A stretch of 64,000 nt of DNA from Fimbriimonas ginsengisoli Gsoil 348 (GTDB lineage Bacteria; Armatimonadota; Fimbriimonadia; Fimbriimonadales; Fimbriimonadaceae), in NCBI RefSeq assembly GCF_000724625.1, contig NZ_CP007139.1, positions 930,001-994,000 on the forward strand, given 5' to 3'. Positions 558-6,595 of this stretch are shown piece by piece. Positions within the stretch are counted from its first letter, which is position 1. Each line of letters begins with the position of its first letter. The translations under genes and the position numbers were made by a program. The notes beneath the pieces were generated by a model. The model was not told the origin of the DNA. It ran no database searches and saw only the letters and a list, made by a program, of their open reading frames with translations.

Positions 558-1151
558 TTACTTTGCCGCCCACGAGCGCAAACGGGTCCGTAGCCGCGCT
601 CCCTCCCGGCGGTTCCCAAGCAGAGTCGGCAACTCTCGCGGCTCGACCATGAGGCGGATCGGCTTCTCCCCGACTTTTCCTTCCACCGACACCCACCGAC
701 CCAAACCTAGCAAGGAATGGACGTTGGCGCGGAAACGCACCTCGCTCACGTCCGCCCGCAAGACCTCTACTGTTCGCGACTCGGAGAGGAAGCGGAGACG
801 GTCGTCGGTTACTTCGAGAAATCCGATGTCCTCGTGAGGGTCGACGGTGCTGGAATAGCGGGGGGTGGCGAAACCGACGAACCATTTTTCACCGGCGAGC
901 GTTTCTCCGTTCGCATGGAGGATTCTTTCGAGCTGGGCGCGCATGCGGCGGTTCTCGAACAAGCCAAACCGGTTCAGGGCGAACCAACCGACAACGGTGC
1001 CGGTCACCAAAAGCGCAAGCCCCCCGCCTAGAACCTCACTTTTGACCGCCATCCACGCCAAGCCCGAGACCGCGAAGGGGAGCCAGAACAGCGCGGGCAC
1101 AAGGTTGCCCATGATCTTTCGCCGCGAGGTCCAGACTGTGGGAGGAGCCAC
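558..1151 (-). CDS. Small membrane protein of unknown function
   Basis: The 197-residue product has two closely spaced hydrophobic segments near the N-terminus (about residues 17-36 and 41-60), followed by a soluble, Arg-rich domain of mixed beta character. This is the layout of bacterial PH-like or signalling membrane proteins, but I do not recognise the family. The GTG at 1149-1151 is chosen because TAACAT lies 6 nt upstream, like other leaderless-type starts here. An internal ATG at 1112 (MGNLVPALFW) is the alternative. Inverted repeat copies flank the gene on both sides. Confidence 0.65.
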   Translation of the reverse strand: MAPPTVWTSRRKIMGNLVPALFWLPFAVSGLAWMAVKSEVLGGGLALLVTGTVVGWFALNRFGLFENRRMRAQLERILHANGETLAGEKWFVGFATPRYSSTVDPHEDIGFLEVTDDRLRFLSESRTVEVLRADVSEVRFRANVHSLLGLGRWVSVEGKVGEKPIRLMVEPRELPTLLGNRREGARLRTRLRSWAAK

Positions 1152-1282: not shown

Positions 1283-4171
1283 TTGGGATTGAAAGTACTT
1301 AGCGCGGTCCCCGGCCCTACCAGCGTCGGACCGATTATCCGGCAGTTCTGCGGCCGTGGTGAAGGGGTGGTTACCGCGTTTTCGGACTCCGCGCTGCCGG
1401 TCTGCAAGCGGTTCGTTCAGGAGGACGACGCGGTCGAGGTGCTCGCCTTGGGCGAGGTGGTTTCCCGATTCCTGAGAATGTGCGGCGAGAGCGCCCAGCC
1501 GCTATCCCAAGCTGGGCAGGTGGAAGCCGCCATTGCTCGCGCCTGCCTAGAACTTCCCGCGGAGTCGCCGTTCTCGCGAACGGCGCGGTATCCGGGTCTG
1601 CATAAGGCGCTCAATCGGACCCTGAAAGAGCTGCACGAGTGGGAGATCGACCGCGATGAGATGCTGGATCTTGCGTCCGTCGCCACTCCCCGCCTCTCCG
1701 CCAAGCTCCAGTCGCTGGCGGAGATCGACAAGGAAGTCGATTCGGTGATGTTGGCGCTCGGACGCCAGAGCCACTCGGCCCAATTGCGGGCATGCTTCGA
1801 TTCCCTGCCGGAGCGGGACGGAAGCTTCGATCGGCTGCTGATTCTCGCCGGGTCGGAAGAGTCGCCGTTGCGGCTGCGCTGGATCCAGTGGGCGGTGGAC
1901 CAGGGAACGGATATCACGCTCATCGTGGAGCGTCACGCCGCCGATGCGCCGATATTTGCGGGCTCTCGCCGAACGTTGGAAGCGCTTGGCTTTCCCGGCA
2001 TTCCCACCGGAGACGGCAACGCCCTCACACGGAACCTTTTTGCTCCCGATCTCACGGGCGGGCCGGGGGTGGACGTAGCGATCGTCAGCGCAGCCGATCC
2101 GCTCGCGGAGGCCGAGTGGGCGCTTCGCGGGTGCATGGAAGAGGAGCGGCCGGACCAAGCCGGGATCTACGTTCGAAATCTGGAAACGTACGCTCCGCTC
2201 ATCGAAGCGGCCGCCAAGCGGCTCGGCATCCCGGTGAGAATCGCGCGGCGGGCTCCGCTCCTGACCAACTCTTTCGCCCGCTTAACGCTTGCCGCGCTCG
2301 AGTTTTGCGCCTCTAACGACGTGCGCACTCTGGGTCCGATCTTGCAAAGCAGCTACCTCGGCCTTACCGGCGAGGGGCAGGCGCGGCTGGCGTCCGGTCT
2401 GCGCGAGTGCCACTCAATGCGGTCCATGCAGTGGGAAACCTTACGGACCTGGGCGGACATTCATGAGGAAGAGTTCCCGTGGGTCGGAGCGCTACTCGAG
2501 TGGCGGCAGAAGGCGAGCGGCAGCCTGCTTCTGCGGGAATGGAAAGCGCTGGTGACGGAGCTGATCTGCGCCGACGAGCGGTTCCCCTGGAGCACCCGGA
2601 TCATGGGGCGCGATCGCATGATGGCCGAACGCGACCGGCGAGCCCGGCATCAGCTCGAACGCCTGCTCGCCAACTTCGTCACCGTCGACGCCATCGTCGA
2701 CGAGCGGTCGATGACTCTGTCCGAAGTCACCGCGATCTGCCGGCGGGTCTGGAAGGACGCAGACGTAAGCATTCCACCCAGCTCGGAAGTCGGCGTATGC
2801 GTCGCGGACGATCCTTACGCCCTTACCGACGTCGAAACCCTGCGCGTCATGGGGATGCTGGAAGGGGTCTTCCCTCGCCGCCGAAGCGAAGAGCCGGTGC
2901 TTACGGATTACGATCGAGAGGAGATCTCCAATCTCCGTCCCGGACATCCGCCGCTTCTGAATTCGCACGATAAGGCGGAAGCGGAGCGCGACGCCTTCTA
3001 CCGGGTCTGTACCGCCGCGCGGCGGCAACTGGTGTTCAGCTATCCGCTGGCCGACGACTCGCGCGATAACATTCCGGCCTTCTATCTCACCGAGGTCGAG
3101 CGCGCTGCCGGCGGCCACGAAAAGGTGACCCGAAAGGACTGGGCTCGCACGCTTCTAGCTCCCCTGGGCGATGAATGCGTAACCGAAAACGACCGGATTC
3201 TGCGGCAATCGCTGGATGCCCCGCGCGAGTCTCCCTCCGCGGTCGAGCTGATCTCGCAAGCCGCGCGAGACGCCCTCCGTCCGGAACTCGGACATCGCTT
3301 CGCGCCGGGCGAGCTGCGCGACGCGCTGCAATGCCCGTTCCAGTACGCCTTGCGTCACCGGCTTCACCTCCGGGTTCGCCGTCGCGGCGCGCGGTGGCAA
3401 TCGCTTCGCAAGCTGCCGCAGGCCTCGGGGTTGGTTGGGAAGGAGAGCCGCGAGCATGCGGAGCACGCACTGATCGAAGCGCTTCAGGCGGAGTTGGATT
3501 CGCTCTACTCGGAGGTGCCGGACTGGGAGATGCAGCTTTTGCGCGCCGGCGGGCGCCGGCTCATTCGTGAGTGGCTGCGTCGAGAGTTTCGGTCGCGCGA
3601 GATGTGGCCCAAGGAGATCGGAAGTATCCGCGGGAATGTCGCCTTCGGAGCCGACGGACTCCGGGATGCGATGCCGGGCGGCGTGCTTCTCGAAGGGGTG
3701 GTGCCGGCGGTCTCGCGGCACCAGCGCTACTCGGTGGCCCACCTCTACGGCTCCGGGGCCCGCGATCCAAAGAACCTCACGGAAGTCGAAAAGCTTTACT
3801 ACGGGTTGTACTTCCTCGCCCTCCACGAGTCGGGGCGTGAGGGAGCGCTGGAGATCGAGTCGATGCGCGGCAAGCGCGAGCTCGTGGTGCTCACCCGAGC
3901 CGGCGGTCCGGTGAACGGGTTCGCGCAGGACGGGCTTTCGGTCGTCGATCTGGCGACCGCCGACGACCCGGCGCTGAGTAAAAAGATCTTCTTCGACGAC
4001 GTCAAACGCGCCCTCAAGCGGGCGGTGGAACGGATCTACGATTCGCGGGTCGACGCGATGAAAGGGGACCACTGCGACTGGTGCGACTACGGCGAGCTCT
4101 GCCGCCGCTCCCGCGCCTTCGGCGAGGAAGACTCCCCATTCGGGACCGATGTGGTGTTCGAAGATGTGTAG
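1283..4171 (+). CDS. AddB-like helicase-nuclease subunit homolog with degenerate active sites
   Basis: AddB partners AddA in double-strand break processing. The 962-residue product has the AddB/PD-(D/E)XK C-terminal layout: one Cys in LQCPFQYAL (about residue 684) and C-x2-C-x5-C near residues 931-940, the four ligands of the family's iron-sulphur cluster. Where active enzymes read GRIDRVD and then DYKTG, this protein has LLEGVVPAV and HLYGSGA (about 801-827), so the nuclease Asp and Lys are missing. The N-terminal strand that should carry Walker A reads VPGPTSVGP, without GKT/S. The TTG at 1283 is chosen because AGAGGGA lies 5 nt upstream; TTG 1289 is also possible, and upstream codons fall in a repeat. 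The AddA-like gene follows. A structural, non-catalytic role is inferred. Confidence 0.75.
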   Translation: MGLKVLSAVPGPTSVGPIIRQFCGRGEGVVTAFSDSALPVCKRFVQEDDAVEVLALGEVVSRFLRMCGESAQPLSQAGQVEAAIARACLELPAESPFSRTARYPGLHKALNRTLKELHEWEIDRDEMLDLASVATPRLSAKLQSLAEIDKEVDSVMLALGRQSHSAQLRACFDSLPERDGSFDRLLILAGSEESPLRLRWIQWAVDQGTDITLIVERHAADAPIFAGSRRTLEALGFPGIPTGDGNALTRNLFAPDLTGGPGVDVAIVSAADPLAEAEWALRGCMEEERPDQAGIYVRNLETYAPLIEAAAKRLGIPVRIARRAPLLTNSFARLTLAALEFCASNDVRTLGPILQSSYLGLTGEGQARLASGLRECHSMRSMQWETLRTWADIHEEEFPWVGALLEWRQKASGSLLLREWKALVTELICADERFPWSTRIMGRDRMMAERDRRARHQLERLLANFVTVDAIVDERSMTLSEVTAICRRVWKDADVSIPPSSEVGVCVADDPYALTDVETLRVMGMLEGVFPRRRSEEPVLTDYDREEISNLRPGHPPLLNSHDKAEAERDAFYRVCTAARRQLVFSYPLADDSRDNIPAFYLTEVERAAGGHEKVTRKDWARTLLAPLGDECVTENDRILRQSLDAPRESPSAVELISQAARDALRPELGHRFAPGELRDALQCPFQYALRHRLHLRVRRRGARWQSLRKLPQASGLVGKESREHAEHALIEALQAELDSLYSEVPDWEMQLLRAGGRRLIREWLRREFRSREMWPKEIGSIRGNVAFGADGLRDAMPGGVLLEGVVPAVSRHQRYSVAHLYGSGARDPKNLTEVEKLYYGLYFLALHESGREGALEIESMRGKRELVVLTRAGGPVNGFAQDGLSVVDLATADDPALSKKIFFDDVKRALKRAVERIYDSRVDAMKGDHCDWCDYGELCRRSRAFGEEDSPFGTDVVFEDV

Positions 4172-4177
4172 CCTCAT

Positions 4178-4247
4178 CTTTGCGTCTTCGCGCCTTTGCG
4201 AGACATTCCGTTCGGGGAGTTTCACGCAAAGGCGCGAAGACGCAAAG
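4178..4247. repeat. Long perfect palindrome between addB-like and addA-like genes
   Basis: Arms 4178-4200 and 4225-4247 are perfect 23-base inverted repeats (CTTTGCGTCTTCGCGCC...) with a 24-base loop. The stem lies between the AddB-like stop and the AddA-like Shine-Dalgarno. The sequence type resembles palindromes dispersed in many bacterial genomes. It may attenuate transcription or stabilise the upstream mRNA. Confidence 0.85.
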
Positions 4248-4261
4248 GGGGAGGTGGGAAG

Positions 4262-6595
4262 ATGAGCAATGCTGCTCAGGCTTTAAGCCTGTCGACGGAG
4301 CAGAGCGATGTCGTGCAGACGCGGGAAGCCCACTTCTCCGTGGTGGCGGCCGCGGGCGCCGGGAAGACGTTTGTGCTCGTCGAGCGATACCTCCGCCATG
4401 TGGTGGAGGAGGATCTGCGGCCGGACCAGATCCTCACGATCACCTTTACCAAGAAGGCCGCCGCCGAGATGAAGCGGAGGATCGTGCGGCGTCTGCGCGA
4501 CCAAGGTCTGAACGATCAGGCCCAAAACGCGGAAACCGGCCCGATTCAAACGATCCACTCCTTCTGCGAGCGGCTTCTTCGTGAGAACGCCCTCGAAGCC
4601 GGCCTCGACCCGAGCTTCGAGATCCTCACCGAGTCCCACTCCTCCCGCCTCGTCTCCGCCTGCGTACGGGAGGCACTCGCTTCCCCGCTCGACGACGAGC
4701 CCCAAGCGGAAGCGCTGATCTCGTTCCTCGCCGGTAAGCGCCCCGGCTTCGGTGAGAACAAATCGCCCTACGGAATCCTCGAGAGCGCGGTCGAAGCGGT
4801 GCTGCGCGATCTGCGAGGCAGCGGGTTCAGCCAGTTGCAGATCCAGCAATGGCATCTCGACCCCCGAACCCTTCGCGACCGTTGGGAGGATCTCCTCCTT
4901 CGCGAGCTATCGCCGAACGCCCAGGCCGCGTTCGCCAATATCGAGGCCGACTCGTTCCAAGAGCGGATGCAGCAGGCGCTGAAGTCGGTAGGCGAGAAGG
5001 TGCCGGGTTGGCTAAAGAATCGCCCCGACCTGCAGGCCGAGGAAGAAGCGCTGGAGCAGACCTGCGGTCTGGTTCAACTCGCCTGCGCGGCTTGGTGGCG
5101 ACTCGACCGGGAGATGGATGCCGAGCAAGCGCTCGACTTCAGCGCGTTGGAAGAGAGGGCGGTGCGCCTCCTCGAGCGCTCGGAAGCAACCCGCGAGCGG
5201 CTTCAGCGCCAGGTCCAGGTCGTCATGGTCGACGAGGCGCAGGATCTGAATCCGATGCAGTACCGCCTGCTTCGGCGCATCGAAGCGTCTCGCGAGATGC
5301 TGGTGGGAGATGCCCAGCAGTCGATCTACGGATTCCGCCAGGCGGACGTCGAGTTGTTCGAGCGTCGCGCGGTCGAAGGCCATACCCTTCGTCTCTCCCG
5401 CAATTACCGCTCCGTGCCCGGCATCCTCAACTTCGTCGACTTCGTCTTCGGCCGCCTCTGGCACGAGAGCTACGTGCCGATGAGCAATCTCGACGCGCCG
5501 ATGGATCTGGAGAACGACGTCCCCCGAGATTTCGCCGGAGTGGAGGTGTGGCGTCAGGCCGCCAACGACGCGGACGCCACCGCCACCTACATCCGCGAGC
5601 TGCTCGACGAGGGGATCGCCAAGAAGGACATTGCGGTGCTTGTCAGGGATGGCGGCGGAGCGCAGGCGATCGAAACCGGCTTGAAGGGGGTGGGCATCCC
5701 CGCTCGGGTTGCGGGCGGAACGGAGCGGTTTTACACCCGTTTGGAAGTTCGGGACCTCGCCAACGCGCTTCGCGCGGTAGCCGATCCGTACGACGACTTC
5801 TCGCTCCTCGCCTGCTTGCGGAGCCCGCTCGTGGGCCTCTCGTTGGACGCAATTACCCTGCTCGGCCGGGAGGCGGGAGTGGTCGAAAGGTTGGCGGAAT
5901 TCGAGTCGCCGGTGGACGAGGACGGACCAAAGCTCGAGGCGTTCCTCCGCTGGTATGAGCGGCTACGCGGAATCGCCGACCGGCTCGCCGCATGGGAGGT
6001 GCTCGCCGAGATCTTTGCCAAGTCTGAGCTTCTCCCCGCACTTGCGCGCCGGGAAAAGCCGGAGCAGCTTCTTGCGAACGTCCGAAAGCTTCTCTCGCTG
6101 GCGACGCAAGAGCCGGACCTTGGCCCGCTCGAATACGCCGAGCGAATCCGGGAGATCCAAGATCTTCGCCACAAGGAGGGGGATGCGCCCGCCGACGAAG
6201 AGGATGCGGACGTCGTGACGATCATGACCGTTCACAAGGCGAAGGGGCTCGAGTTCCCAGTCGTGGTGCTCCCCCAGACCGACAAGCGGCTAGCGGCCAA
6301 CGCCCGAGACCTCGTGGTCGAGCCGCGCATGGGTCTCGTCGCCACTAAATACGGAAAAGGTCAGTGCCTCATGCACAAGTTCCTCACCGAGCGGCGGAAG
6401 CGGCGCGACGAGGAAGAGGAACTCCGCGTGCTGTACGTGGCCCTGACCCGGCCGAAACAGCGGCTCTGCGTTTCCCTCTACCCGCCGCGCCGCGACCGGA
6501 CGGTCTCGAAAATGCTCCAAGAGCTCCTCGGCGACCCACCCCCACCCGGAGTACGCGTGAGGGACTCGCAGGACCTTTCGCAGATGCCCGTCTAA
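4262..6595 (+). CDS. AddA-like UvrD-family helicase lacking the nuclease domain
   Basis: This is a superfamily 1A DNA helicase of 777 residues. Motifs run in order: Walker A AAAGAGKT near residue 30, TITFTKKAAAEM, DEAQD (about 322), GDAQQSIYGFR, LSRNYRS, TVHKAKGLEFPVV and VLYVALTRPKQ near the end. AddA proteins are usually about 1,200 residues and carry a C-terminal PD-(D/E)XK nuclease; this one stops shortly after the last helicase motif. The ATG at 4262 is chosen because GGGAGGTGGGA lies just upstream; 22 codons before it run through the palindrome. Together with the AddB-like gene it probably forms a DNA translocase in recombination repair, but no nuclease is visible in either subunit. Confidence 0.88.
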   Translation: MSNAAQALSLSTEQSDVVQTREAHFSVVAAAGAGKTFVLVERYLRHVVEEDLRPDQILTITFTKKAAAEMKRRIVRRLRDQGLNDQAQNAETGPIQTIHSFCERLLRENALEAGLDPSFEILTESHSSRLVSACVREALASPLDDEPQAEALISFLAGKRPGFGENKSPYGILESAVEAVLRDLRGSGFSQLQIQQWHLDPRTLRDRWEDLLLRELSPNAQAAFANIEADSFQERMQQALKSVGEKVPGWLKNRPDLQAEEEALEQTCGLVQLACAAWWRLDREMDAEQALDFSALEERAVRLLERSEATRERLQRQVQVVMVDEAQDLNPMQYRLLRRIEASREMLVGDAQQSIYGFRQADVELFERRAVEGHTLRLSRNYRSVPGILNFVDFVFGRLWHESYVPMSNLDAPMDLENDVPRDFAGVEVWRQAANDADATATYIRELLDEGIAKKDIAVLVRDGGGAQAIETGLKGVGIPARVAGGTERFYTRLEVRDLANALRAVADPYDDFSLLACLRSPLVGLSLDAITLLGREAGVVERLAEFESPVDEDGPKLEAFLRWYERLRGIADRLAAWEVLAEIFAKSELLPALARREKPEQLLANVRKLLSLATQEPDLGPLEYAERIREIQDLRHKEGDAPADEEDADVVTIMTVHKAKGLEFPVVVLPQTDKRLAANARDLVVEPRMGLVATKYGKGQCLMHKFLTERRKRRDEEEELRVLYVALTRPKQRLCVSLYPPRRDRTVSKMLQELLGDPPPPGVRVRDSQDLSQMPV

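Follow-up and report, generated by a model that had tools for sequence, protein, structure and literature searches.

A derived AddAB pair predicted to lack both nucleases in Fimbriimonas and related Armatimonadota

We analysed a 64-kb stretch of DNA (the window), which corresponds to positions 930001–994000 of a complete single-contig genome of 5.23 Mb. Positions 1283–6595 of the window are occupied by an addB-addA pair, with both genes on the + strand. The families compared are labelled f1 (the window's own family, Fimbriimonadaceae-like Armatimonadota) and f2, f9 and so on (other families of Armatimonadota). The features of the pair are listed below.

1283..4171, + strand: addB-like gene (962 aa, TTG start) encoding inactive helicase-like domains and a nuclease-like domain
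1292..1333, + strand: segment at the expected Walker A position, KVLSAVPGPTSVGP, with no GKT/S (alignment with GKT-bearing relatives)
1622..1639, + strand: LKELHE, in which Glu116 corresponds to the Chi-latch residue E129 of B. subtilis AddB (profile alignment to 3u44_B)
2903..2920, + strand: TDYDRE, in which Arg545 corresponds to the Chi-latch residue R629 of B. subtilis AddB (alignments to 3u44_B)
3296..4105, + strand: nuclease-like domain with a PD-(D/E)XK fold and lost catalytic residues (PF12705 match)
3329..3343, + strand: QCPFQ, with the first Fe-S cysteine, C684, invariant in the alignment
3413..3442, + strand: LPQASGLVGK, which occupies the place of the LLH (His) motif
3695..3712, + strand: GVVPAV (aa 805–810), which replaces GxIDRV of intact relatives; the catalytic Asp is Pro
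3734..3757, + strand: VAHLYGSG (aa 818–825), which replaces xIDYKxG of intact relatives; Asp and Lys are lost
4073..4102, + strand: CDWCDYGELC, with three further Fe-S cysteines, C931, C934 and C940
4262..6595, + strand: addA-like gene (777 aa) encoding a complete SF1A helicase without a C-terminal nuclease

The addB and addA genes lie side by side in the window, as they do in 32 of 35 family loci; in the other three, L066 (G099), L080 (G181) and L082 (G177), the fetched flanks of addB contained no addA. In most f9 genomes, addA lies apart from addB. Relocation of a nuclease into the operon was rejected because no conserved nuclease was found near addB-addA in the 35 family loci. A local frameshift or misassembly was also rejected because the window AddB aligned over its full length with 64 other family orthologs.

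The original prediction had described a 777-aa AddA-like protein that stops after helicase motif VI without a nuclease, and this description was borne out. The window AddA possesses intact SF1A helicase motifs I–VI (UvrD-helicase match, 197.9 bits), and only 42 residues follow motif VI, compared with the 285–360 residues containing DYKTG found in the nuclease-bearing AddAs of Armatimonadota. The AddAs of f7, f10, f36 and f37 carry the nuclease, with 340–360 residues beyond motif VI and the whole nuclease query matched; those of f1, f2, f9, f5 and f25 lack it and end 24–93 residues beyond motif VI. The helicase motifs are complete in the AddAs of the family.

In regards to AddB, the protein matched PF12705 over the full model with 44.7 bits. 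The four cysteines of the Fe-S ligands (C684, C931, C934 and C940) surround the nuclease-like domain, VVPAV and HLYGSG stand where D and DYK are expected from the alignment with intact relatives, and GKT/S is missing from the Walker A position, all as had been predicted. The QxPxY motif is gone in addition to LLH. GKT/S is present at the Walker A position in nearly all relatives outside the family. The same prediction suggested that the pair has only one ATP site; the nucleotide-binding signature of AddB is indeed lost, but a single motor is normal for AddAB-type enzymes, which always have one (PMC4824097), so only the lost signature in AddB is unusual. The Chi-latch residues of B. subtilis AddB are E129 and R629 (PMC4824097), and their putative equivalents, E116 and R545, are kept in 49 and 48 of the 65 family AddBs, respectively.

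The predicted structure of AddB was confident almost throughout (mean pLDDT 90.2). Structural comparison, proposed with the original prediction as a check, indicated that the AddB fold is retained from end to end: the model matched solved AddB chains with Z 28.4–29.2 over approximately 900 of 962 residues (Foldseek E 1.7e-29), and the matches to AdnA (Z 21) and RecC (Z 20.5) were both weaker. The nuclease-like part alone (residues 667–959) of the model matched Cas4 chains with Z 11.4, and the profile alignment of AddB to 3u44_B gave E 2e-62. AddB diverges fast, with identities within the family of mostly 25–50%. Among close relatives, the dN/dS values of the nuclease-like domain were 0.02–0.15, similar in most pairs to those of the rest of AddB; the values were low in the helicase-like part too, and those of AddA were 0.02–0.19. 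These results indicate that the predicted nuclease-dead domain of AddB is under strong purifying selection.

We compared the AddBs of 65 same-family genomes (approximately 32 genera) in which the protein was readable. The catalytic Asp and Lys did not occur together in any of the 65, the DYK motif nowhere began with D/E, and no GKT/S stood at the Walker A position. All four cysteines were found in 64 of the 65, and in the remaining one this region is a run of N. The loss noticed in the window is therefore common to all 65 same-family orthologs, and neither an AddB with normal motifs nor a D/E together with a K at the aligned positions of the active site, either of which would have told against the original prediction, was found among the 65. 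The AddB of the sister family f2 (a single genome, G188) retains all of the nuclease residues H, D, D, K, Q and Y, as do 18 other Armatimonadota AddBs, nearly all of which have GKT/S. Because the second motif of B. subtilis AddB is AYK, not DYK, the claim of loss rests on the Asp of GxIDR and on the Lys, together with the loss of His and Gln.

Nuclease residues are also partly or wholly lost in five AddBs of f9: G022 (L035/L134), G155 (L142), G189 (L137), G131 (L148) and G159 (L149). The changes are H to R and DYK to DYT, TYR or HYR, or the residues are wholly gone; Walker A and the four cysteines are kept in all five.

The order of the losses was examined using an AddB tree built from the helicase-like part only, with the nuclease domain left out. 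A branch with full support set all f1 sequences apart, and f2 adjoined them, a placement that involves long branches. The distribution of the AddA nuclease, present in f7, f10, f36 and f37 and absent from f9, f5, f25, f2 and f1, indicates that it was lost first, before the split of f1 and f2, apparently leaving an AddAB with one nuclease. The loss of the AddB active site maps to the base of f1 and thus appears to be later. The most parsimonious count of nuclease-loss changes in AddB on the tree was five, and treating three decayed f9 AddBs as one shared loss gave an AU p of 0.057. The tree and alignments indicate that at least one loss of the AddB nuclease, in f9, is separate from the f1 loss.

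From these sequences and the structural model, we classify the window pair as a derived AddAB, a nuclease-less variant and not a separate class. The pair resembles AddAB of B. subtilis (PDB 3u4q and 4cej) in its full-length AddB fold, adjacent genes, single SF1A motor in AddA, four-Cys Fe-S ligands and equivalents of the Chi-latch pair, but it lacks the AddA nuclease domain, the AddB catalytic residues and the AddB Walker A. Unlike AddAB, it also fell far below the NCBIfam equivalog cut-offs for AddA (addA_Gpos, 265.9 bits; cut-off 707.65) and AddB (addB_Gpos, 46.9 bits; cut-off 903.7), although the f2 pair, with an intact AddB, misses these cut-offs too. The fold, operon order and phylogeny thus make the pair an AddAB descendant, whereas the two missing nuclease features place it outside the definition of AddAB as a helicase-nuclease. 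The original prediction of a helicase that has an Fe-S scaffold but lacks an intact nuclease accords with these results, but its proposal of an enzyme distinct from AddAB, AdnAB and RecBCD does not, since the fold, operon and phylogeny are those of AddAB.

The other known systems are less similar. RecC of RecBCD likewise has helicase-like domains that lack an ATP site and, after them, an inactivated nuclease-like domain whose probable role is to guide DNA; however, the window AddB keeps the Fe-S cysteines, is closer to the AddB fold (Z 29 versus 20.5) and gave no match with the recC model, and its partner motor AddA also lacks a nuclease, unlike RecB. Mycobacterial AdnAB belongs to the same superfamily and also processes ends with two subunits, but AdnA and AdnB both have nucleases, whereas the window pair has neither nuclease residues in AddB nor a nuclease domain in AddA, and the structural match is weaker (Z 21). 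The laboratory mutants RecB(D1080A)CD and AddA-dNUC AddB-dNUC have an intact helicase and no nuclease activity, as the window pair is predicted to have, and they still repair. These mutants are engineered, whereas the Fimbriimonas state is natural and family-wide, with the sites erased or deleted.

Because both built-in cutting sites are lost, any cutting must come from something else. We consider it likely that the nuclease-less derived AddAB acts on DNA ends only as a helicase, while another enzyme trims the 5' strand in trans and RecFOR loads RecA. In this scenario, AddA would have lost its C-terminal nuclease domain by deletion before f1 and f2 diverged, and erasure of the AddB active site, with the fold kept, would have followed at the base of f1. 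AddB has also lost its nucleotide-binding signature. The remaining complex would most likely bind double-stranded DNA ends and unwind them with the single AddA motor, and AddB, stapled by a putative Fe-S cluster, would serve as a RecC-like scaffold that splits and guides the strands. A separate exonuclease, probably RecJ, would then shorten the unwound 5' strand, and RecA would be loaded on the 3' strand by RecFOR.

Three precedents make a helicase-only AddAB plausible and underlie our proposal of a helicase that serves resection while trimming occurs in trans. At a replication-dependent break at a nick in B. subtilis, repair requires the AddAB helicase but neither of the AddAB nucleases, and RecJ is not needed (PMC12748557). 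In E. coli, the nuclease-free RecB1080CD cooperates with RecJ and RecFOR, although less well than the wild type (PMC3375238). RecC illustrates how a nuclease-like domain that has become inactive can guide DNA, and the author of that study suggested that RecC-like inactivation set out from a stage similar to AddAB (PMC1185551). Since nuclease-dead AddAB of B. subtilis works without RecJ, the trimming enzyme may be other than RecJ.

The genes for the proposed partners are present. RecJ was found in all 50 near-complete family genomes and RecO in 35 of 36, and RecF, RecR and RecQ are present in the window's own genome. As RecJ and RecFOR are near-universal, their presence lends weak support to trimming in trans. 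SbcCD was rejected as a general substitute because SbcD scored above the model cut-off in only 1 of 26 family genomes.

A different source of cutting would be a solo Cas4-like nuclease that docks on the helicase as a dedicated third subunit, giving a split AddAB comparable to HerA-NurA. The candidate is a Cas4/AddB-nuclease-like protein of 254 aa encoded at positions 4552243–4553004 of the genome (L001:1486-2247). It has four Cys, LHRVLE, GRVDRVD and VDYKSG and hence an intact active site, matches cas4 weakly (34.9 bits, below the cut-off), and is the only PF12705 protein besides AddB that was found in its own genome. One copy occurs in each of 34 family genomes with 47–68% identity, far above the conservation of AddB. 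However, the protein is equally present in most Armatimonadota with an intact AddB, including f2, and its gene lies outside the addB-addA operon. Its distribution does not track the loss in AddB, so it did not arise as compensation, and we rejected it as a specific compensation and regard the third-subunit arrangement as unlikely. We judge it similarly improbable that the complex has been repurposed as a plain translocase that acts at stalled forks, in protein displacement or as an anti-recombinase, with no role in end resection. The loss of the nuclease and of the AddB nucleotide site and the fast divergence of AddB agree with such a change, but the AddB fold, the Fe-S ligands and the E116/R545 pair persist in the window protein and in most family members. 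Moreover, an AddA query of the window's own genome matched only AddA and a PcrA/UvrD-type helicase, which leaves no alternative end-resection motor of the AddA class.

Two further explanations carry much less weight. Migration of the active site is known in the PD-(D/E)XK superfamily, and AddB might still cut through a site rebuilt from residues elsewhere: the Asp column is Asp in 16 of 65 sequences, the Lys column is Lys in 4 of 65, and some [DE]xK lies nearby in 8 of 65. We nevertheless consider this very unlikely, because no sequence has both Asp and Lys or a D/E at the first position of DYK, the catalytic columns hold a free mix of residues (P, A, D, S, T, G), and the His, Gln and Tyr motifs have disappeared too. 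That addB and addA are decaying remnants is the least probable explanation; several activities are lost, but the frames are open in nearly all 65 genomes, dN/dS is low in AddA and in both parts of AddB, and the helicase motifs of AddA remain complete.

In the textbook AddAB and RecBCD enzymes, unwinding, cutting and Chi control are joined in one machine, and to our knowledge, nuclease-less forms have so far been known mainly as laboratory mutants. Among open-access papers, we found none on AddAB in Armatimonadetes or RecB in Fimbriimonas, and an earlier mention elsewhere is possible. A family-wide nuclease-free AddAB maintained by selection indicates that evolution can retain the helicase alone. 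It is possible, and we suggest this tentatively, that end resection has been uncoupled naturally and repeatedly in Armatimonadota, with the stripped AddAB acting as a non-destructive helicase and RecJ or the solo Cas4-like nuclease cutting in trans. Such uncoupling would parallel eukaryotic BLM-EXO1 and Sgs1-Dna2 and archaeal HerA-NurA, and a Chi-regulated destroyer of linear DNA would have been turned into a non-destructive resection helicase. A nuclease-free AddAB also implies that bacteria of this family are without the enzyme that normally degrades linear foreign DNA. The role of the nuclease-like domain and Fe-S ligands of AddB beyond cutting, and the purpose of Chi if no nuclease is left for it to restrain, become testable questions. 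A helicase-only family accords with the 2025 evidence that, in B. subtilis, the helicase activity of AddAB is by itself enough to repair a break at a nick (PMC12748557).

The surroundings of the pair are partly conserved. A divergently transcribed gene for a protein of approximately 200 aa (window 561–1151, minus strand), which gave no NCBIfam match, adjoins addB in 31 of 35 family loci. In the window, this gene is flanked by a 25-base inverted repeat (435–459 and 1244–1268, 96% complementary) with no further copy within the window. A carbon-nitrogen hydrolase gene (nitrilase superfamily) is absent directly downstream of addA in the window and occupies that position in 24 of 35 family loci (e.g., L033:12242-13102).
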